This document shows, piece after piece, positions 11,324 through 32,794 of a stretch of 32,870 nt of DNA. The stretch is from Chloroflexota bacterium. Its GTDB lineage: Bacteria; Chloroflexota; Dehalococcoidia; GIF9; AB-539-J10. The number at the start of each line of letters is the position of its first letter. The stretch's first letter is position 1. The notes below the pieces were generated by a model that saw nothing but the letters and a program-made list of their open reading frames with translations, was not told where the DNA came from and made no database searches. The stretch is taken from contig JAUWQP010000009.1 of the NCBI GenBank assembly GCA_030611015.1, positions 1 through 32,870 on the forward strand, in the 5' to 3' direction. Position numbers and translations under genes: made by a program.

Positions 11324-11350
11324 TCATGCTACTCCAGTCGGAGTATACAT
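11324..11350 (-). CDS. Possible leaderless 8-codon upstream ORF (MYTPTGVA)
   Basis: The ATG at 11350 occupies the same position within cassette copy A as the start codon of the zinc-ribbon gene within copy B, just after the predicted transcription start. Here it opens only eight codons before TGA. It may be inert, or a short upstream ORF affecting the 81-aa gene that starts 48 bases further on. Confidence 0.2.
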   Translation of the reverse strand: MYTPTGVA

Positions 11351-11412
11351 CCTAATCTAATTGTACCACTTACTAGCTCAGTGAAGTTTGAGGATAGCTT
11401 GAGGCTTTATCA
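11348..11412 (-). promoter_or_regulatory. Promoter cassette, copy A
   Basis: This 65-bp block is 59/65 identical to 12034-12098 without gaps; 36 consecutive bases are identical. On the minus strand it holds TGGTACAAT, a TGn extended -10 (hexamer at 11365-11360). Further upstream lies the direct repeat CCTCAA-N5-CCTCAA, spaced by 11 bp, which could be an activator or repressor site. It lies upstream of the 81-aa gene. Confidence 0.7.
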
Positions 11413-11739: not shown

Positions 11740-12036
11740 CTACTCGCCTCCAGCTTTATTACTCTTTTCAGGTTTCGCCAATGCTTTTGCCGCTCTCTCC
11801 TGCAACTCCTTCAGCTTCTCTGCCCCCTTCCACTGCTCTAACTTGTCCTCCAAGACTTTAAATTCTTTCACTTCCCCCTTGTCCAACTTAATGCGCAGTA
11901 ATGACTTACACGTATCACACAACAAATCACCGCTATAATCCTGGTCAACATATTCTGGAAATTTAATAGTATTTTCACACATAATGCACGCAATCTCAGC
12001 CCTTTTTCTCTTTATCACCATAGCCAAGGTACGCAT
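11740..12036 (-). CDS. Zinc-ribbon protein, unknown function
   Basis: This 98-aa protein has a four-cysteine zinc ribbon: IACIMC then, about 18 residues later, LLCDTCKSLLRIKL. A charged, probably coiled-coil C-terminus follows (lysine/glutamate/alanine rich). The ribbon resembles the second half of the protein at 15340-15585: both have CxxC, a spacer containing YSG, CxxC, and a strand ending in GEV. The ATG at 12036 lies inside promoter cassette copy B, only about three bases after the expected transcription start, so it may be a leaderless start. The alternative ATG at 12021 would give a protein five residues shorter. The role is unknown; such ribbons bind nucleic acids or proteins. Confidence 0.7.
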   Translation of the reverse strand: MRTLAMVIKRKRAEIACIMCENTIKFPEYVDQDYSGDLLCDTCKSLLRIKLDKGEVKEFKVLEDKLEQWKGAEKLKELQERAAKALAKPEKSNKAGGE

Positions 12037-12098
12037 CCTAATCTCATTATACCATTCGCTAGCTCAGTGAAGTTTGAGGATAGCTTGAGGCTTTCTCA
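12034..12098 (-). promoter_or_regulatory. Promoter cassette, copy B
   Basis: The near-identical partner of 11348-11412. On the minus strand it contains TGGTATAAT, a perfect TATAAT at 12051-12046 with the TGn extension. The same CCTCAA-N5-CCTCAA direct repeat lies upstream. It drives the zinc-ribbon gene, whose ATG is within the duplicated block, and probably the two-TM gene after it. Confidence 0.75.
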
Positions 12099-12146: not shown

Positions 12147-13106
12147 CTATTTCTTTATCGCCACGTATGCTTCAACTAGGAAGACGATATTCGTTGCCGC
12201 CAGATGAAGTGCATAAGCAGCGTAGTGGTTTGGAACAATAGTTCTCTTTTTCCCTTGACCATGTCTCGCTAATCTATTACTTGTAGTAGGTAGTCCACTT
12301 TCTAATGTTGCTCTTAAGGAACCAAAATGACCTTGTAAAGGCCTAGGAATTAATCCATTTCCAATACAAATATCGATTAAAGGCTTTGCAGTTGCGTTCT
12401 CAGGGAATTTCCAACCCATCAGTGAGCAAATCGATTTCATCGTGCTTTCAAATGCTTTTAACGCATTAGAAATAGCGTCTTTGTTGTTACCCTCGCGGTA
12501 ATGTTTGTGGGCATCTAAGAATTCTTCGGAAGCTCCCTCAAAACCCGGTTGTTGGAGAAGAGAAATAGCTGGGAGCACGGCTTCAGTATGCATATATTGG
12601 GAGTCCATCCGAACAATCATACCACCAGCATATTGGTAACCAATCCCATGTTCCTTAAACCTAGTATTTAATTCGTTAATAGCATCGTCAGGCTCTTGGG
12701 TAATTTTTGCTCTGAGTTTTTCTACACCATCTAATTTCGAGCAAACTATTTCAATCATGCGAAAAGATACTTCAATCAAGCTTAATATATTGTCAATGTT
12801 GGATTCTTCTAATAAAAAGGTGCAACATTTCGTAAATGGCTTATCTCCCTTTCTGCCTAACGATGAAAGTCCTAATTCTCTACATAATATGTCGTGTATC
12901 GCAATCCAAATATTGTCTGGTGGTTCGTTACTATAGTCGTAGCTGCCTTCTCGCCAAGTACCAATTGCGGTTCGCCAAATATATATTATCTGGTTTCGCA
13001 AACCTTCTGGTATTTCATCATATTTATAAACATCAGGTTGCCCTACTTGTTCCTGCTGCTTTTTTCGCTTTGAATAAATATCATATACGGGCATTTCTAC
13101 CATCAT
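12147..13106 (-). CDS. STM4504/CBY_0614 family protein (Abi-like C-terminal region)
   Basis: This 319-aa protein matches from memory the STM4504/CBY_0614 family. It opens with MPVYDIYSKRKK and PDVYKYDEIPEGLRNQIIYI, then an alpha-helical middle, then a conserved C-terminal block with AHKHYREGNNKDAISNALKA, ATAKPLIDICIGNGLIP, LRATLESGLPT and RLARHGQG. The C-terminal block resembles the Abi_C/HEPN-like helical domain found in abortive-infection proteins. RLARHG could correspond to the R-x(n)-H motif of such domains, but catalysis is unproven. The function of the family is not established. The first codons (ATG at 13106 or 13103) are weak; the family start may be the ATG at 13094. It is isolated on the minus strand in the accessory island. 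Confidence 0.82.
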   Translation of the reverse strand: MMVEMPVYDIYSKRKKQQEQVGQPDVYKYDEIPEGLRNQIIYIWRTAIGTWREGSYDYSNEPPDNIWIAIHDILCRELGLSSLGRKGDKPFTKCCTFLLEESNIDNILSLIEVSFRMIEIVCSKLDGVEKLRAKITQEPDDAINELNTRFKEHGIGYQYAGGMIVRMDSQYMHTEAVLPAISLLQQPGFEGASEEFLDAHKHYREGNNKDAISNALKAFESTMKSICSLMGWKFPENATAKPLIDICIGNGLIPRPLQGHFGSLRATLESGLPTTSNRLARHGQGKKRTIVPNHYAAYALHLAATNIVFLVEAYVAIKK

Positions 13107-13370
13107 ATCATGAATGATTCTCCGCTTTAATTCTCATTTTCGGGGCGGTTTAAGTTAGTGTGGTTTATGCAGCCTTTCTAATATAGGATATTCCAAAGTG
13201 TAAAGCTAAATGTCGGCAAAATCCGGGCTTCAGGCCAAATCAACCTAAAAGCAGAAGACTAAAGCGAGTTAAGCCAATCAAGCTTGCTGTTTAAGGTGAG
13301 TAGCATTTGCTTAGCATCAACAGAATCAGCCATAATATCGCGTGACTGAATTCCCATAAACTCTAAGTCA

Positions 13371-13946
13371 ATGAAACTCATAGTTGGTTTGGGGAATCCC
13401 GGTAAGACTTATGCCCATAATCGCCACAATGCTGGCTTCCGGTGCCTGAATTACTTCGCCAGGCTTCATTCTATTCGCTTTGACCACAGGCAATGCCGGG
13501 CTAGGGTAGGCATTGGCGAAGTAAGAGGTGAAAAGTTGCTGCTGGCAAAGCCCAGGACATTTGTGAATCTCAGCGGCGACCCCGTGGCTTGCCTGGTGCG
13601 TAAGCATGACATTCCTTTGAGCAACCTCTTGATAATCTATGATGACCTCGATTTGCCTCTGGGCAAAATTCGCCTGCGGCAGAACGGAAGCTCGGGAGGA
13701 CACAAGGGAATGAATTCCGCTATTTCCGCCCTCGGTAGCGAGGACTTCCCTCGAGTCAGGGTGGGGATTGGGCGGCCCCAGGGAGAAGAGCAATCCATCG
13801 GCGAGGACGCTATAGTCAGTTATGTGCTCAGCGATTTCTCCCCTCAGGAAGAAGCAACAATTAAGCCTGTAATTGCCACGGTGGCCGAAGCCATTGACTG
13901 CTTTCTTACTCAGGGAATAGAAGCGGCAATGAGCAAGTTTAACTAG
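13371..13946 (+). CDS. pth: Peptidyl-tRNA hydrolase
   Basis: Pth releases tRNA from prematurely ended peptidyl-tRNAs, an essential recycling step. The 191-aa protein has the complete active site: GLGNPGKTY (N9), HNRHNAGF with the catalytic His19, PRTFVNLSG (N66), and IIYDDLDLPLG with Asp91/92 followed by GSSGGHKGMNS. Length and order are normal. The 3' end, from codon 171 to beyond the stop (13881-14010), recurs as a 79%-identical copy at 15101-15230, so this gene end looks like an integration or recombination site. No strong ribosome-binding site precedes the ATG. Confidence 0.96.
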   Translation: MKLIVGLGNPGKTYAHNRHNAGFRCLNYFARLHSIRFDHRQCRARVGIGEVRGEKLLLAKPRTFVNLSGDPVACLVRKHDIPLSNLLIIYDDLDLPLGKIRLRQNGSSGGHKGMNSAISALGSEDFPRVRVGIGRPQGEEQSIGEDAIVSYVLSDFSPQEEATIKPVIATVAEAIDCFLTQGIEAAMSKFN

Positions 13947-14010
13947 CCGCTTTACGAAGCTACGTGCCATGCCGTATTAAAAAGAAAATTTAACCAAATA
14001 GCGGATTGTT
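13881..14010. repeat. Direct repeat, left copy (pth 3' end and flank)
   Basis: This 130-bp stretch covers the last 22 codons of pth and 64 bases beyond. It aligns without gaps to 15101-15230, with 27 mismatches counted by hand. Within the coding part most changes are synonymous. Confidence 0.85.
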
Positions 14011-14350
14011 GCTCCTTGGCTCTATAGGATGTCTTGGACACCGCACAAAACAATATCGACAATCCCTTTACTAACAGTACTATAGTACTATAAGGCGATC
14101 ATAAATTTGGTAGTCAAGTGTGTGCCTTAGTGGATTGCGCAGTTCTCACAATGCTTAGTCCAGCATATATTGATATCCTATAGCGGACGAAGGGGGTAAG
14201 GTGAATAACTGGATACTTCTGTTACTAATGTGTGATTGACAGTAAACAAGACCATGCTATATGATAGTCTTAGAGAGAAATTCCAAATAACGTTTAATAA
14301 CCAAAATCCATAGGGCTTAACAGTTTTAAATTTTGAAAGGGAGGATGAAC
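13947..14350. other. Intergenic region between pth and the DUF4382 gene
   Basis: The region contains the non-coding part of the left direct repeat (to 14010), a 14-bp perfect palindrome AGTACTATAGTACT (14076-14089) that could be an operator, and the promoter of the DUF4382 gene. No further gene is visible. Confidence 0.6.
14236..14263 (+). promoter_or_regulatory. Promoter of the DUF4382 gene
   Basis: TTGACA (14236-14241), 16 bases, then TATATG (14258-14263) preceded by TGC, a TGn extended -10. TATGAT two bases further on is an alternative -10 with an 18-base spacer. Confidence 0.55.
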
Positions 14351-14947
14351 ATGAAGAAATTCTTATCACTGACGATTATTCTGGCAGTGGTGGCTGCATT
14401 ATCGATTACTCTGGCGGTGCTGTCTACATCAGGAGTAGGTTGTATTTCTCCAGAACAGGCACTAGAAACAGGAACCTTGAAACTCTATCTTTCAGATGCG
14501 CCGACAGACGCCGAAAATGTTACAGGTGTTTACATTACTATTGATGAAATTCAATACCATCGAGATGGTCAATGGATAACATGCGGGGAATTTGTAGTCC
14601 CTCAAAAATATGACTTATTGGAATTAACCGGGGGAAATTCCACCTTATTGGGTGAGTTGACATTGCCTTCTGGGAATTACACTCAAATTCGCTTCATGCT
14701 TGATATTCAAGAAATAGGTCCACCCCCAACCAGTCCGGGCTGTTATATCGAATTTGCTGATAACTCCACAGAGCCTCTCTTCGTCCCGAGCGGTGGACAG
14801 ACAGGCTATAAAGGAATAGGCCGATTCGAAGTTCCTGTTAATGGAACTGTGGTGGTTACCGCGGACTTCGATGTTCGTGAAGCTGTTGTTCTAGCAGGTT
14901 CTTCATACATCTTAAAGCCAACAATCAAGCTGATAGTCAACGACTAA
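14351..14947 (+). CDS. DUF4382 domain-containing secreted protein
   Basis: An N-terminal signal sequence (MKKFLSLTIILAVVAALSIT) is followed by GVGC, a weak lipobox candidate. A DUF4382 domain follows: GTLKLYLSDAPTDAENVTGV, then VYITIDEIQ, a LLELTGGNSTLLGELTLPSG segment and the closing YILKPTIKLIV strand. DUF4382 proteins are exported beta-rich proteins of unknown function, common in archaea and in several bacterial phyla. The start is the ATG at 14351, seven bases after GGGAGG; upstream in-frame TTG and ATG codons are ignored. The TAA at 14945 is followed in the same frame by 72 further sense codons, so the protein may be a truncated version of a longer one (see next entry). Confidence 0.85.
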   Translation: MKKFLSLTIILAVVAALSITLAVLSTSGVGCISPEQALETGTLKLYLSDAPTDAENVTGVYITIDEIQYHRDGQWITCGEFVVPQKYDLLELTGGNSTLLGELTLPSGNYTQIRFMLDIQEIGPPPTSPGCYIEFADNSTEPLFVPSGGQTGYKGIGRFEVPVNGTVVVTADFDVREAVVLAGSSYILKPTIKLIVND

Positions 14948-15166
14948 GCTGGAAGTATCCGTGGCTCAATTACAAATACTTCTCATCGCACCGATATGAT
15001 TGTTATTGCCAACGGAGATAGAACTTGGGCTGACACAGAAGTCAATGACCCAGTTGGTGAGGATTCCATATTTTCTAATTCAATTGCCAGCGAGAGAATA
15101 GTGGCGGAAGCCATTGATTACTTTCTCACCCAGGGGATAGAAGCGGCAATGAGCAAGGTCAACTAG
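14948..15166 (+). pseudogene. In-frame remnant after the DUF4382 stop, fused to a pth 3' fragment
   Basis: Directly after the TAA of the DUF4382 gene the same frame stays open for 72 codons to TAG at 15164. The first part, AGSIRGSITNTSHRTDMIVI, resembles the AGSI-xGxV/IT beta-strand extensions that follow DUF4382 domains. From 15101 the frame is a diverged pth C-terminus (VAEAIDYFLTQGIEAAMSK). No start codon or ribosome-binding site of its own is evident. Either one base change in the stop codon separated this tail from a longer DUF4382 protein, or the openness is fortuitous. Confidence 0.55.
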
Positions 15167-15230
15167 CCTCTTTATAAAGCTACATAGTATACCCTATTCA
15201 AACGGGAATTTAGCAATACGGCGGTTTGTT
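15101..15230. repeat. Direct repeat, right copy (diverged pth 3' end)
   Basis: Partner of 13881-14010. It encodes VAEAIDYFLTQGIEAAMSKVN and a stop, then non-coding flank that decays from about 85% to about 65% identity. The sequence to its left has no resemblance to pth, so the boundary is sharp at about 15098-15101. Confidence 0.85.
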
Positions 15231-15268
15231 AAGTCTAAATCCAAATTATTCGTCAGGGGAAAACACCA

Positions 15269-15288
15269 TGCTATAATTTCAGTATAAT
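15269..15288 (+). promoter_or_regulatory. Promoter of the zinc-finger/DUF998 pair
   Basis: TGCTATAAT (hexamer 15272-15277) is a TGn extended -10. A second TATAAT lies at 15283-15288. No convincing -35 is present for either. Confidence 0.5.
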
Positions 15289-15339
15289 GAACTTAGTAAC
15301 TGGAATATTTTAGACATTGCCAATGTACTAAGGAGAGAA

Positions 15340-15585
15340 ATGCGTTTTAAATGTGTCACTTGCGGAATTGAGTTCGATACTATAGAGCAGCTAGCTCGCC
15401 ATAAGCAACAGCACCAGGCTGGTCCAAGAAGCTCCTCAGGAGTAATTTGCCTGGGCTGTGGTAAAAGTATCCCTTTGGAGTCATCTAAAGCTAACTACAG
15501 CGGGCCACTCGCTTGTCCTAACTGTCGACGGACAATGACCGTCGTATTAGAAGATGGTGAAGTGGTTGCATCTCGGCTTGGCTAA
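15340..15585 (+). CDS. Small C2H2 plus zinc-ribbon protein
   Basis: This 81-aa protein has two zinc modules. The N-terminal one is a classical C2H2 finger, C-x2-C-x12-H-x3-H in FKCVTCGIEFDTIEQLARHK. The C-terminal one is a four-cysteine ribbon, VICLGCGKS then about 18 residues later LACPNCRRTMTVVL, ending in GEVV. The ribbon is similar to that of the protein at 11740-12036, including the YSG before the second cysteine pair. A clear ribosome-binding site (AAGGAG) precedes the ATG. The stop is five bases from the DUF998 gene, so they form an operon. Probably nucleic-acid or protein binding; exact role unknown. Confidence 0.78.
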   Translation: MRFKCVTCGIEFDTIEQLARHKQQHQAGPRSSSGVICLGCGKSIPLESSKANYSGPLACPNCRRTMTVVLEDGEVVASRLG

Positions 15586-15590
15586 CGTCT

Positions 15591-16226
15591 ATGTCTAAAC
15601 GTCTGAACATCCATAGTGTCCCGGCTCTAGTCGGTATCGTGGGACCCATTGTGGTGGCTGTCGGGGATCTCGCAGCATCTTCATCCGTTCCCGGTTACAG
15701 CCTGGTCCGTGATTCAGTCAGCAGCCTGGCATTGACTAGCATAGGCTGGCTACAATCAATTTGCTTTCTAGCTATGGGCCTGCTGTTGGTGATCTTTGTC
15801 GCCGGGCTGTTTTTTAATATTCGTAGAGCCCGGGTCTTCCATGCCGGCATCGTACTTCTTGCTCTCTGTGGCTTCGTGCTGATGTTGATTGCCACCTTTC
15901 ATATGGACCACCCTGGAGCTCCGCCTATTGATGGAACAATCCACACGATAGCATCTTACGGCCTTGGCTTGTTATTCCCCATCGCCATTTTGTCGCTCAC
16001 ACCTAGCCTCAAGAATACCCCGAATTGGAAAAACATCTTTATCTATACACTTATTGCCGGTGTTTTAGCTTTGGCTCTGATATCGGGGGCATTGCTTGCC
16101 GAGCAACGAGGCTGGTTCGGTCTGTATGAGCGAATTATAATACTCAACGCGCTAGTCTGGGTGGAGGTAGTAGCAATCCATTTTCTACGCCTGCTGCTGA
16201 GGCAGGAGCCAAAGCCTCAATCCTGA
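15591..16226 (+). CDS. DUF998 family membrane protein
   Basis: This 211-aa protein has about six hydrophobic helices spread over its whole length. The arrangement matches DUF998: a first helix with VGIVGPIVVAVGDL, a conserved YSLVRDSVSSLAL loop, then HAGIVLLALCGFVLMLIATF, FHMDHPG and GTIHTIASYGLG. The function of DUF998 is unknown. Its start follows the zinc-finger stop by five bases without its own ribosome-binding site, so translation is probably coupled. Confidence 0.82.
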   Translation: MSKRLNIHSVPALVGIVGPIVVAVGDLAASSSVPGYSLVRDSVSSLALTSIGWLQSICFLAMGLLLVIFVAGLFFNIRRARVFHAGIVLLALCGFVLMLIATFHMDHPGAPPIDGTIHTIASYGLGLLFPIAILSLTPSLKNTPNWKNIFIYTLIAGVLALALISGALLAEQRGWFGLYERIIILNALVWVEVVAIHFLRLLLRQEPKPQS

Positions 16227-16268
16227 CAGCATCTCAATTTTGCCCGAGTCTGAGTTGGACTGAAGTTG

Positions 16269-16448
16269 ATGATCAGGCGTAAGCCAAAAGAGGTTAAAAC
16301 GAAGGAATATTTGGGCAAGAAAGTATTGCGAGTAACACCAAAAACCACGAAACTGTTGAAACAGTCGGTTAGGCAGTTCTGGGCGAGGTCTAAGCAGAAA
16401 TATGAGATATCACTTGCCAGCCCGACTGACTTGTTAGAGCACGAATAA
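16269..16448 (+). CDS. Doubtful small basic ORF
   Basis: About 59 residues, rich in lysine and arginine (MIRRKPKEVKTKEYLGKKVL at the start). It has only a weak upstream purine run and no recognised family. It could be a small nucleic-acid-binding protein or a fortuitous frame; base composition does not settle it. Confidence 0.25.
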   Translation: MIRRKPKEVKTKEYLGKKVLRVTPKTTKLLKQSVRQFWARSKQKYEISLASPTDLLEHE

Positions 16449-16563
16449 GAACACAATGACGGGCACTTGTCTGCCCATCCAGAAACGAATAATTTAGAGT
16501 CCAACCAAATATACGCATAGGACCATGTTCTCTTAGGGTGCAAGGTATCGTCTCTTCCAGTCT

Positions 16564-16743
16564 GCTATCGGGACAAGATTAAGCAGGACGAGGAAAGTGT
16601 TGAGGCTTTTCTGGGCGGCATAGTCCACGAGGCTCTCAAGAAATGCTACGACCACGTCAAGCTGGCCAGGCTAGTCACGCTGGATGAACTGCTCGTCTGC
16701 TATGACAATCTCTGGCAGCAGAACTGGCACGACGGGATTGTTA
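16564..16743 (+). pseudogene. Orphan internal fragment of the RecB/Cas4-like nuclease gene
   Basis: These 180 bases align without gaps to 17611-17790 (codons 22-81 of the intact gene), with 19 mismatches counted by hand, about 89% identity. It still reads in frame as CYRDKIKQDEESVEAFLGGI and onward, and keeps the active-site GGxxH histidine. It has no start codon, no Fe-S cysteines and no nuclease core. Similarity stops abruptly on both sides. Together with the intact gene it flanks the HigBA pair. Confidence 0.85.
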
Positions 16744-16761
16744 GTAGGGGGAGGAGGCTTG

Positions 16762-17037
16762 TTACTTAGGTCGCAGGTTGATTTCCAATTCAGCATCAAG
16801 TGCATCAGCCAGGCGTTTAACAGTAGATAAAGACGGTAACGAGCTTCCGCTCTCCAGCCTGGCTATGCTCTCCTGCTTAGTATTCATTAGCCTTGCTAAT
16901 TCCTCTTGGGTCAACCCCTTCGCTAGCCTTAGCCGAATCAAGGCAGCTGCCAACCTGTATTCAGGTTCAAGAGCTTCGTACTCTGCCCTAAACTCAGGGT
17001 CTTTAAGAAGTTTCTTCTTGTGCTCTTTCCAATTCAT
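16762..17037 (-). CDS. higA: HigA-type antitoxin, XRE family
   Basis: This 91-aa protein has a C-terminal helix-turn-helix: LIRLRLAKGLTQEELARLMN, then TKQESIARLESGSSLPSLST. A charged helical N-terminus precedes it, as in HigA-type antitoxins encoded after their toxins. It would bind and neutralise the HigB-like toxin and repress the shared promoter. The gene starts four bases after the toxin stop, with the ribosome-binding site AGGAGGTGA built into the end of the toxin frame. Confidence 0.9.
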   Translation of the reverse strand: MNWKEHKKKLLKDPEFRAEYEALEPEYRLAAALIRLRLAKGLTQEELARLMNTKQESIARLESGSSLPSLSTVKRLADALDAELEINLRPK

Positions 17038-17041
17038 CTCA

Positions 17042-17383
17042 TCACCTCCTGGATAGATAATCGTCGCGCCTGCGCCGGGCTGTTTCTATGTCCCCTCTTG
17101 GCACCGGACCTGTCTTCTTAGTAAACCCATGCAGCAAGACAAACGTCTCACCGGTGGCCAAAAAGTAGATAATACGGTGCCGATTTCTACCATGCCGGAT
17201 TCTCAACTCCCAGAGTTGTTTTTCGAGATGCCGGGCATATGGCATCCCCAAATCAGCACCGAATTCCTCAAGTAAATCCAAAGTCCTAACAATTCCGGCT
17301 CTCGACTTCGCATCCAGGGAGTCGATAAATTCAGCAACCGGGACTTTACCAACCCCTGACTGGTAGCACTCTATGTTCCACAC
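17042..17383 (-). CDS. higB: HigB/RelE-family toxin (phage-derived Gp49-like)
   Basis: This 113-aa protein has the Gp49/HigB pattern: a short N-terminal strand, EFIDSLDAKSRAGIVRTLDL, then LWELRIRHGRNRHRIIYFLA, FVLLHGFTKKTGPVP and a basic C-terminal helix. Toxins of this family are ribosome-dependent or free mRNA endonucleases; the basic residues R, H and K in the core strands fit. Start is GTG at 17383, only about eight bases after the -10 hexamer, so the mRNA is probably leaderless. The toxin precedes the antitoxin, the usual HigBA order. The pair lies between a partial and an intact copy of the nuclease gene. Confidence 0.9.
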   Translation of the reverse strand: MWNIECYQSGVGKVPVAEFIDSLDAKSRAGIVRTLDLLEEFGADLGMPYARHLEKQLWELRIRHGRNRHRIIYFLATGETFVLLHGFTKKTGPVPRGDIETARRRRDDYLSRR

Positions 17384-17391
17384 TTAAGAAG

Positions 17392-17431
17392 AGTATAACA
17401 ACATTGTTATATATTGTCAACATTGTTCAGT
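17392..17431 (-). promoter_or_regulatory. higBA promoter and operator
   Basis: On the minus strand TTGACA (17420-17415) and TATACT (17397-17392) are separated by 17 bases, a near-perfect promoter. AACAATGTTG occurs twice, once overlapping the -35 and once in the spacer. Each copy is nearly palindromic, which fits a double operator for the XRE antitoxin. Confidence 0.8.
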
Positions 17432-17546
17432 TCGGGTAGCATAAGATTATGTTTTTCCTCAACTTGCCTCGGTCTTGCCAGAACGCATTCTTTATGGCTG
17501 CTTTCTCTGGTATACTTGAGTTGACTGGTCGCCTGTAGGTTTGATT

Positions 17547-18740
17547 ATGCCAATCTATTCTCATTCACAGCTAAGCACTTATGAAGAGTGCCCACTTAAG
17601 TACAAGCTCCGCTATCGGGACAAGATTAAGCGGGACGTGGAAAGCGTCGAGGCTTTTCTGGGCGGGACGGTTCATGAGACCTTGAAGAAATGCTACGACC
17701 ACGTCAAGCTGGCCAGGCTAGCCACGCTGGATGAATTACTCGCCTCCTATGACAACCTCTGGCAGCAGAACTGGCACGACGGGATTGTTATCACCAGGAA
17801 AGACGTGACCGCTGACGATTACCGCGCTCTGGGCAGGAAGATGATAGAGACCTATTACCAGCGCCATGCTCCTTTTGACCAGGATATAACAATCGGCACC
17901 GAAATGAGGATTAGATTTTCCCTCGATGACGGCGGTAGATACAAGTTCCAGGGAGTGATTGACCGGTTGGCAAGGACGCAGGGCGGCATCTACCACATCC
18001 ATGACTACAAGACCTCTGCCTATCTGCCGAGCCAGGAAGACATTGATAACGACCGGCAACTCGCCTTCTATCAGATTGGAGTGCAAAAGAGATGGCCCGG
18101 TGTTCAGGAAATACAGCTAATATGGCATTATCTGGCTTTTGACTGCCTGCTTGTGTCACAACGTTCGCAGGAGAAAATTGCTGAGCTGGCGGAGGAAACC
18201 ATCAGGTTGATTGACGAGCTAGAAGCTACCGAGGAGTTTTTACCGAAAGAATCGGACTACTGCAAGTGGTGCGAATATCCAGACCTCTGCCCGACGAGAA
18301 AACATCTCTACACTGTAGAAGCCTTGCCCGCCAATGAATATCTGAGTGAGCCCGGCGTTGTCTTGGTCAACAGGTATGCTGAATTGAAGGAAAAAGCTGG
18401 CGAAATTGATGAGGAGATGGCGAAGGTGAAGGATGCGCTTATTGACTATGCCCGACAAGAAGGAGTCACGGTGCTAAAAGGAAGCAGATACAAGGTGAGG
18501 GTTAAGTTTGGCGAGAAGCTGGGATTTCCACGCAAGGGCGAACCAGCCCATGAAAATCTGGATGACACAATAATTCAAGCGGGCAAATGGCCGGAGGTTT
18601 CGCAGCTTGACACGACAGCACTCACCGGAATCGTTGAGAAAGGTCTGTGGGACAAAGAACTCATTGACCAGGTGATGAAATATGGCAGGATAGAAGAAAC
18701 GAGTGCAGTCTATTTGTCAAAGCTAAGTGAAGAGGAGTAA
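17547..18740 (+). CDS. RecB/Cas4-like PD-(D/E)XK nuclease with Fe-S cluster
   Basis: This 397-aa protein belongs to the PDDEXK_1/RecB-nuclease superfamily. Visible motifs are YSHSQLSTYEECPLKYKLRY with C15, GGTVHETL with H43, GVIDRLAR with D139, HDYKTS with D153 and K155, and QLAFYQIG with Q171. A later C-x2-C-x5-C (C239, C242, C248) together with C15 would hold a 4Fe-4S cluster, as in AddB and Cas4. The C-terminal 150 residues are helical and not recognised. There are no cas genes or CRISPR repeats, so a repair role is more likely. ATG at 17547 is preferred over TTG at 17541. A fragment of a homologue lies at 16564-16743. Confidence 0.88.
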   Translation: MPIYSHSQLSTYEECPLKYKLRYRDKIKRDVESVEAFLGGTVHETLKKCYDHVKLARLATLDELLASYDNLWQQNWHDGIVITRKDVTADDYRALGRKMIETYYQRHAPFDQDITIGTEMRIRFSLDDGGRYKFQGVIDRLARTQGGIYHIHDYKTSAYLPSQEDIDNDRQLAFYQIGVQKRWPGVQEIQLIWHYLAFDCLLVSQRSQEKIAELAEETIRLIDELEATEEFLPKESDYCKWCEYPDLCPTRKHLYTVEALPANEYLSEPGVVLVNRYAELKEKAGEIDEEMAKVKDALIDYARQEGVTVLKGSRYKVRVKFGEKLGFPRKGEPAHENLDDTIIQAGKWPEVSQLDTTALTGIVEKGLWDKELIDQVMKYGRIEETSAVYLSKLSEEE

Positions 18741-31069: not shown

Positions 31070-32794
31070 TTGAAAACAATTTTTAGTTCGATGAAACACA
31101 GTTACTTTTCAAAAATTGGCATCTTGTTGATTGTGGTAGCCTTAGTCGCCGGGATAGTTAGCTGTGTTCCTGCTGATACCTACGAATTGATTATGGCAGA
31201 AAACCCTGCTGGAGCTGGAACGGCGACCGATGAGACGGGTACGTCGCCTTACGCGGAAAACAAGGTAGTCGATATAAAAGCAGTAGCCGCCCCATGCTAC
31301 CGGTTTGTTGGCTGGACTGCGCCAACAGGCACGTTCGGTAACGCTACCGCAGCAGAGACCACCTTCACCATGCCGGCTCGAGATGTCACCGTCACCGCCA
31401 ATTTTGAGCCCGTTCCGCCCGACCACTACAAGTTCTACACAGTGGACTGGGAGGAAGGGCTGTACGTAGGGAAGGAAGTGCAGCTGGTGGACCAGTTCGG
31501 CACTTTCAACGCAACGGTGGGAGATCCCGTATCCTTCGGCAACCCTGTCCAGAAGATACACAATGATGATGTAACACCGATTGCCGACGAGAACCGCCAC
31601 TACACTTTGTACTCGCTAGGCTACGGAGAAGAAGAGCCCATGCTAGACTCGTGGCAAGTGGTGGTCAAGAACCAGTTTGGCGAGAACCAGGAGCTGACGG
31701 TGGTCGGTCCGTACTACCTGGCTGTACCAACCACGAAGGAGGGCCACGAAGAGCCGGTTTGTCTCAACCACTTCTTGGTCTACGAGGTTATTGGTAAAGA
31801 GTTCCCTGAGGTGGGTGTGAATCTCAAGGACCAGTTCATCGAGGAAGATGTCGTGGTTTGGGAACCCATTTACTTCGCCAACCCCGTTCAGAAAACAATA
31901 GTTGACAGCGGCGAGGTAACGGAGATCGAGGACCGGGACCCGCATGGGCATCTGGTATTCTACTCGATAGAAGACATAGGGTTCAACGAGTCTATCGAGA
32001 AGAGTATACAGATTGCTAATCAGTTCGGTAACCAGACCCTAGACCTGACCTACCGAGACGTGCTCGCCGTGCCTTCCCAGAAGATATCCTGGGAACAGCC
32101 GCTCGACCACTTCAAGTGCTACTGGGCTATGTGGGCTGATGAACCACCGCCAACGTTCCCGGCGGAGGTGCAGCTGGAGGACCAGTTCATAACAGAATGG
32201 CTCGGCGAACCTCTCATCGCATTGGTGGGAGAGCCCGCCTTCTTCGCCAACCCTGTCAACAAGTGGCACGGCGAAGTGTGGACGCCGATCTCGAACTGGA
32301 ACGACCACTACACGTTCTACTACCTAGAGTACGAAGAAATGACTCCGGTGTGGGAAGTGACGGTCAGCAACCAGTTTGGGATAGACCAGGTGCTGTACGT
32401 GGGAGGTCCGGACATGCTGGCTGTACCTACCAAGAAGGGGCTTCACGACTGGCCGGTGGGCCTCGACCACTTCCTGGTCTATACAGTCCTCGGAGAGCCC
32501 CCAGTCTTAAATGAAGAAATTTGGCTCTGGGACCAGTTCACCGACCAACCGGCTACGGTGTATCCGGCCGCCTACTTCGCCAACCCCGTCCAGAAAATAC
32601 ACGGCAGTGAGGTAACGGATATCAAGAACGATGAGCATCTGGTATTCTACTGGATAGACGGCGGGGATTTCTACGAGGAGTGGCTACCGATTGACAATCA
32701 GTTCGGTCCGCAAGTCCTTATGGTGGGCCAGGATGATATTGATTTCATCGGCGTGCCGTCACAAAAGGTAAATTTTAGCATAGCACCTGATTAG
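31070..32794 (+). CDS. Large lipoprotein with bacterial-repeat domain and four DQF-type tandem repeats
   Basis: The start is TTG, five bases after GGGAGGT. The 574-aa protein has a signal peptide ending in a lipobox (GIVSC, C32). A domain like the bacterial repeat family (RFVGWTAPTGTFGN...TFTMPARDVTVTANF) spans about residues 38-113. Four tandem repeats of 105-120 residues follow, built on DHFKFY/HFLVY, VQLVDQF, FANPVQK and an NQFG...LAVP unit. Repeats 1 and 3 resemble each other most, as do 2 and 4, so an ancestral pair was duplicated. DQF/NPV-type repeats of this kind are found in secreted proteins of archaea and Chloroflexota; their role is unknown. Likely exposed on the cell surface. Confidence 0.82.
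   Translation: MKTIFSSMKHSYFSKIGILLIVVALVAGIVSCVPADTYELIMAENPAGAGTATDETGTSPYAENKVVDIKAVAAPCYRFVGWTAPTGTFGNATAAETTFTMPARDVTVTANFEPVPPDHYKFYTVDWEEGLYVGKEVQLVDQFGTFNATVGDPVSFGNPVQKIHNDDVTPIADENRHYTLYSLGYGEEEPMLDSWQVVVKNQFGENQELTVVGPYYLAVPTTKEGHEEPVCLNHFLVYEVIGKEFPEVGVNLKDQFIEEDVVVWEPIYFANPVQKTIVDSGEVTEIEDRDPHGHLVFYSIEDIGFNESIEKSIQIANQFGNQTLDLTYRDVLAVPSQKISWEQPLDHFKCYWAMWADEPPPTFPAEVQLEDQFITEWLGEPLIALVGEPAFFANPVNKWHGEVWTPISNWNDHYTFYYLEYEEMTPVWEVTVSNQFGIDQVLYVGGPDMLAVPTKKGLHDWPVGLDHFLVYTVLGEPPVLNEEIWLWDQFTDQPATVYPAAYFANPVQKIHGSEVTDIKNDEHLVFYWIDGGDFYEEWLPIDNQFGPQVLMVGQDDIDFIGVPSQKVNFSIAPD

Follow-up and report, generated by a model that had tools for sequence, protein, structure and literature searches.

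The window is the whole stretch of DNA that was analysed, 32,870 nucleotides in length; it is contig C34 of genome G000, whose assembly comprises 1.79 Mb in 116 contigs. An intact pth gene in the window, encoding peptidyl-tRNA hydrolase, is followed by a gene for a secreted DUF4382 protein and then by a second, partial pth 3' end. The locus was compared with those of congeners, which are Dehalococcoidia metagenome genomes from a public collection, several of them belonging to the CSMAG set. The features of the locus are given below in order of position.

13371-13946, plus strand: pth, peptidyl-tRNA hydrolase, 191 aa, intact (Pfam PF01195, E 3e-64)
13881-14010, plus strand: proximal (left) pth 3' end, comprising the last 22 codons, stop included, and 64 nt of G016-like flank (repeat search, identities)
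14005-14011, no strand: left insert junction, where homology to an unlinked DUF4382 locus of G008 begins at 14005, with GTT/TTGTT in common (alignment)
14071-14094, no strand: palindrome in the DUF4382 leader (repeat search)
14236-14265, plus strand: predicted sigma-70-like cassette promoter, TTGACA-18-TATGAT, 11 of 12 positions matching (from sequence)
14351-14947, plus strand: cargo gene, secreted DUF4382 protein, 198 aa (Pfam PF14321, E 1e-31)
14948-15099, plus strand: C-terminal remnant of an ancestral, longer DUF4382 gene, severed at the right junction (homology to G003:C56 and G004:C17, which run on beyond)
15098-15103, no strand: right junction, DUF4382 remnant to pth codon 170, the same in G016, with about 3 bp of microhomology (GTG) (alignment)
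15101-15230, plus strand: displaced (right) pth 3' end, its left edge common to G016, its 3' flank native (G012/G005 type), its constraint gone (repeat search, comparison with congeners)
15340-15585, plus strand: native downstream gene, C2H2 zinc-finger-like, directly after pth in G012 and G005 (Pfam, congener loci)
15591-16226, plus strand: native downstream gene, DUF998 (Pfam, congener loci)

The two pth ends form an ungapped direct repeat of 130 nt with 79% identity in a repeat search of the window; window self-BLAST gave the pair E = 9.7e-26, far above chance, and no third site with this sequence was found elsewhere in the genome assembly. The repeat consists of the final 22 pth codons, including the stop, and 64 nt of flank. 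Its coding part is identical at 58 of 66 nt, and 5 of the 7 codons that differ do so synonymously. An earlier, sequence-only reading had described this repeat and its mostly synonymous differences, and both were confirmed by repeat search, self-BLAST and codon comparison. The same reading held that both copies had once served as functional pth ends. The synonymous divergence supports that view, with the qualification that the displaced copy has since lost constraint, as seen in a change from F to V in the window and in an extra base causing a frameshift in G016, a genome of another species in the same genus.

The start of the DUF4382 gene is better set at 14351, which is preceded by AGGGAGG, a good ribosome-binding site as read from the sequence. 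The gene is 94% identical in nucleotides between the window and G016 with a dN/dS of about 0.22, which places it under purifying selection. The promoter, the palindrome, the DUF4382 gene and the lack of an integrase in the block, all of them noted before, were found again with Pfam and in the sequence. Pfam detected no integrase or transposase among the proteins searched from 12147 to 18740, and the repeat search of the window found no terminal inverted repeats at the insert. No other DUF4382 source was found in the same genome besides the window copy, and DUF4382 had no match in phage records searched by tblastn or in viral contigs.

Unlinked DUF4382 loci of other congeners carry the gene with a longer downstream coding region, and the edges of the insert, set against these loci, coincide with the edges of the repeat. 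The upstream region of G008:C15 aligns with the window from 14005, and the first repeat ends at 14010. On the other side, G004:C17 and G003:C56 align as far as about 15095-15099, at the start of the second pth end, and beyond that point continue with the rest of the old C-terminal region. In these alignments about 3 bases are common to each joint and the pth region, GTT on the left and GTG on the right. Because both edges align with unlinked DUF4382 loci, the insert is a fragment of such a locus, cut within the old C-terminal domain, with both edges known.

In G012 and G005 the site is empty: the zinc-finger gene and DUF998 come at once after a single pth end. Relatives with such sites, which the sequence-only reading had proposed to look for, thus exist. 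In six nearer congeners the site was examined (G012, G003, G017, G019, G015 and G005), and all of them lack the block. It is found in G016, an independent assembly, where pth, the first flank, DUF4382, the remnant and the second pth end stand in the same order as in the window. The joint between remnant and pth is identical in the two, and the G016 leader has an extra stretch of about 150 bp or more. The second pth end of G016 matches for about 77 bp and then gives way to different DNA, with MarR- and MATE-like genes recognized by eye; this genome is 57% complete and its contig is short, and the native flank is out of view. As a separate observation on the other side of the gene, an AbiJ_NTD4-DUF7014 gene lies between ligA and pth (12147-13106, minus strand) while ligA and pth are adjacent in several relatives, so that the upstream side of pth is variable too.

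Divergence estimates for the block and for core genes differ markedly. For the pair G000 and G016, dS is 0.158 (bootstrap 0.09-0.23) in the DUF4382 gene, and the distance is 0.186 in the 5' non-coding part of the block and 0.169 in the remnant. The corresponding dS values are 0.523 (0.43-0.66) for ligA and 0.519 (0.36-0.79) for the pth body, about three times higher. A block dS so far below those of ligA and pth shows a horizontal move, and the block is younger between G000 and G016 than their core genes. In the comparison with G012, the congener with the closest pth, dS is 0.248 for the pth body, and the native sequence following the second copy has diverged by 0.205. By identities, the upstream part of the window pth is native, nearest to G012 and G003, and the 3' flank is donor-like (G016 type). 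In the 64-nt flank, copy 1 is identical to G016 at 54 of 64 positions and copy 2 at 45 of 64; behind copy 2 the flank can be aligned with G012 as far as the zinc-finger gene. At the 10 flank sites where G012 and G005 agree with each other against G016, copy 1 reads as G016 at 6 and copy 2 as G012 at 7; these sites are few and not unanimous, and would count against the cassette model set out below. On a plain reading, the locus would run as native pth to about codon 170, then foreign block, then native DNA again, with the resident pth end displaced.

Besides G000, a partial second pth on the same contig was found in G050, G053 and G056 (3' side) and in G062 and G063 (5' side), among about 62 genomes of the order with full-length pth; in G063, the pth adjoining the partial copy is cut by the contig end. 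Comparison at the DNA level adds G037 (65 bp spanning the stop codon) and G003 and G064 (flank only in both). The partial pth copies range from 65 to 268 bp, and their position, 3' or 5', differs between genomes. The cargo differs as well, being Bro-N in G050, an MqsA/DUF4258-type pair in G063, NUDIX in G062 and a response-regulator protein in G003 by Pfam, and NifS- (cluster), ArsR- and HicBA-like genes by eye in G053 and G056.

The divergence of the paired pth copies bears on their origin. Simple local copying would give identical ends at first, of which the useless one would then gather changes of every kind. The dN/dS between paired copies is 0.06 in G000, 0.03 in G016, 0.13 in G053, 0.12 in G062 and 0.04 in G063; in G050 and G056 it is 0.43 and 0.34, and local duplication followed by decay fits these two equally. 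When six loci are pooled, synonymous changes account for 56 of the 100 codons that differ; without constraint, about 24% would be expected. In the best cases this is as expected if the two ends had belonged to working pth genes of different lineages while they diverged, and had met only later. Low dN/dS and mostly synonymous differences indicate that the incoming DNA brought its own pth end. This idea, already present in the earlier reading, gains support from the window, from several independent cases, from the G016-type inner flank and from the continuity of the downstream copy with native flank.

Same-contig partial copies were counted for pth in 6 of about 62 genomes, against 0 for enolase and 1-2 for ligA, together 1-2 of about 123 (one-sided Fisher p 0.006-0.018), the two controls having been chosen by hand. 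The excess is no more than suggestive of pth as an insertion hotspot. A second case lies 2.4 kb further on in the window, where 16561-16743 repeats 17608-17790 (183 bp, 89%), the 5' part of a PD-(D/E)XK gene at 17541-18740. This repeat encloses a Gp49-like toxin gene (17042-17383) and an HTH antitoxin gene (16762-17037), both on the minus strand, and G022:C17 (L125) carries a partial copy of the same PD-(D/E)XK gene with other cargo. The recurrence of this arrangement at the PD-(D/E)XK gene argues for a general process that often hits pth, a recurrent but not unique target, rather than for a pth-specific system. Two-copy direct-repeat pairs of 50-400 bp with a gap of 0.25-6 kb numbered 9 in 282 kb of G000, 4 in 384 kb of G012 and 0 in 250 kb of E. 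coli K-12, counts that rest on genome samples in which only some pairs were inspected as insertions. A literature search for pth as an integration site, judged by title and abstract, found no relevant paper.

Several other repeats and gene arrangements were observed in the window and its relatives. Direct repeats of 65 bp with 91% identity at 11348-11412 and 12034-12098 surround two small unknown ORFs; they are dispersed and also occur in G019 (L036 6801-6864). In G000 C16 (L090 2274-4140), a 57-bp gene end is present three times with cassette-like stretches between, as if by repeated insertion at one gene end. G012 C1 (L160 193-9380) and C13 (L178 365-7791) carry hairpin-forming repeats of about 64 bp at spacings of 0.4-2.7 kb, with 15-16 copies in the sample. 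These arrays could be a dispersed palindromic element or the recombination sites of a cassette array, and their conserved ends are unlike attC by eye. In G012:C11 (220319-222670), ligA forms a single 795-aa frame; residues 397-513 and 475-672 are matched separately and give an internal duplicated overlap. Near the contig end of the window, 31503-32707 encodes a 574-aa protein with internal repeats (DUF7450 by Pfam).

The arrangement at pth is probably best explained by a portable, integrase-free cassette, established by homologous and illegitimate recombination with the pth end as homology arm. In a G016-like lineage, a DUF4382 fragment with its own promoter, cut in the old C-terminal domain, would have come to lie behind pth through homologous recombination in the pth end at one edge and an illegitimate, microhomology joint at codon 170 at the other. 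The outcome would have been an intact pth with the cargo behind it and, to the right, a second pth end. The finished block, with pth-end homology on both sides, then passed to an ancestor of G000, probably after the split from G012, a transfer seen in the block divergence; recombination in the pth ends would have produced a complete, hybrid pth at the left side and shifted the resident end downstream. Afterwards the displaced end lost its constraint, and DUF4382 stayed under purifying selection. The homology arm would thus be the end of an essential gene, with survivors only where one whole pth remains, and a finished pth-flanked block could be transferred later by ordinary recombination. The left crossover falls in the pth end at a position that is not exact, and the right junction has about 3 bp of microhomology. 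Among 20 congeners, the DNA-uptake gene families ComEC and DprA (over cut-off) occur in 14 and 17, which speaks of capacity and not of use. Ku occurs in 1 of 20, so that Ku-dependent end joining is unlikely to be the usual route. Counting against the cassette model, 130 bp at about 80% identity is a poor substrate for RecA-type recombination; the imprecise left crossover, the short and incomplete view of G016 and the decay-like copies of G050 and G056 weigh on the same side.

A true target-site duplication keeps a small but real share of the probability. The DUF4382 fragment would have been caught at a staggered break or during template switching, with the resident pth end copied so that the copies were first identical, and the block would have been inherited vertically and lost in relatives. 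The coincidence of repeat edges with insert edges, the microhomology of about 3 bp and the decay-like copies in G050 and G056 agree with this, and loss would be easy given direct repeats. However, the divergence between the copies is mostly synonymous, several losses would be needed for the six nearer congeners without the block, and the divergence of the block lies far under that of the species, a dS contrast that already weakens this explanation. Decay of a complete second pth, or tandem duplication of pth and its neighbour followed by deletion, is a generally known way for duplicate gene ends to arise. Here it is very improbable, as the second copy is immediately preceded in both species by a DUF4382-gene remnant and not by pth, the cargo is single and the congeners have one full pth each; a complete second pth at 15101, which the earlier reading had named as one outcome that would count against it, was not found.

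Site-specific integration at pth of an element that bore or borrowed an integrase and was later stripped to DUF4382 would give the classic picture for a gene 3' end, with the gene end restored and the old end displaced. It is improbable in view of the searched proteins, which include no integrase, the lack of a conserved core, the partial pth copies of 65-268 bp at varied positions, 5' as well as 3', and the want of a DUF4382 match in phage records and viral contigs. Of the earlier proposal of integration at the pth 3' end, integration with a displaced end therefore stands, supported by the empty sites and the horizontally acquired block, while an attachment site in the integrase sense does not, there being no integrase, no identical core and no constant repeat length or position. 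An assembly chimera of metagenome strains could be suspected in a 116-contig assembly with 6.7% contamination, but it is hardly credible when a second species, assembled independently, has this junction too, with substitutions and additional sequence in the leader; moreover, repeats merely 79% alike are unlikely to mislead an assembler.

The cassette reading can be compared with known systems. To our knowledge, insertion with long target duplication has no settled mechanism. In three papers, it is described for restriction-modification genes, mainly in Helicobacter pylori, with Nobusato et al. 2000 (Gene 259:99-108) and Furuta et al. 2010 cited there as primary reports (PMC1643837, PMC3031569, PMC3874152). 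The pth cassette resembles it in a cargo of about 1 kb, no transposase, variable direct repeats of host sequence of about 100 bp and an empty site, and toxin-antitoxin genes are among the cargo at other loci here (the PD-(D/E)XK site and the G063 pth). It differs in carrying DUF4382 and no restriction-modification or addiction module, in copies that are homeologous (donor versus native pth end) and not plain target copies, with local copying possible for G050 and G056, and in that one core gene is struck repeatedly across an order. Because the local-copy and cargo features fail, the pth cassette would be a variant akin in outward features and not a member of this class.

Homology-facilitated illegitimate recombination has been proposed for V. 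cholerae immunity arrays (PMC5361080), and there are reports of it from naturally competent species and from conjugation in E. coli (PMC3240628). It would share with the pth cassette a homologous anchor on one side, an illegitimate joint on the other and a resident gene end displaced downstream of the newcomer; here, however, a housekeeping gene, pth, serves as the anchor, and once complete the block went from one species to another as one piece. Integrative elements at the 3' ends of tRNA, tmRNA and protein genes likewise restore the gene end and displace the old one, but the pth cassette has no integrase, no fixed core site and variable boundaries, and does not belong to the integrase-borne class. 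Unlike a DNA transposon, it has neither transposase nor inverted ends. It looks like a known, little-studied integrase-free route for the spread of genes between species.

A wider proposal is offered tentatively and is considered rather doubtful. In this order, integrase-free cassettes may systematically carry core-gene ends as homology arms with pth as a favoured port, each event keeping one complete gene and displacing the resident end, which would amount to a gene-end-guided route for toxin-antitoxin, defence and surface genes. The entry of small transposase-free genes into bacterial chromosomes is poorly understood. The divergence of two gene ends separates a donor-carried end from a copied target, and it favours the donor-carried end in several independent cases. 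Such repeats preserve traces of gene flow among uncultured Dehalococcoidia that can be dated, and pth could serve as a sentinel locus.
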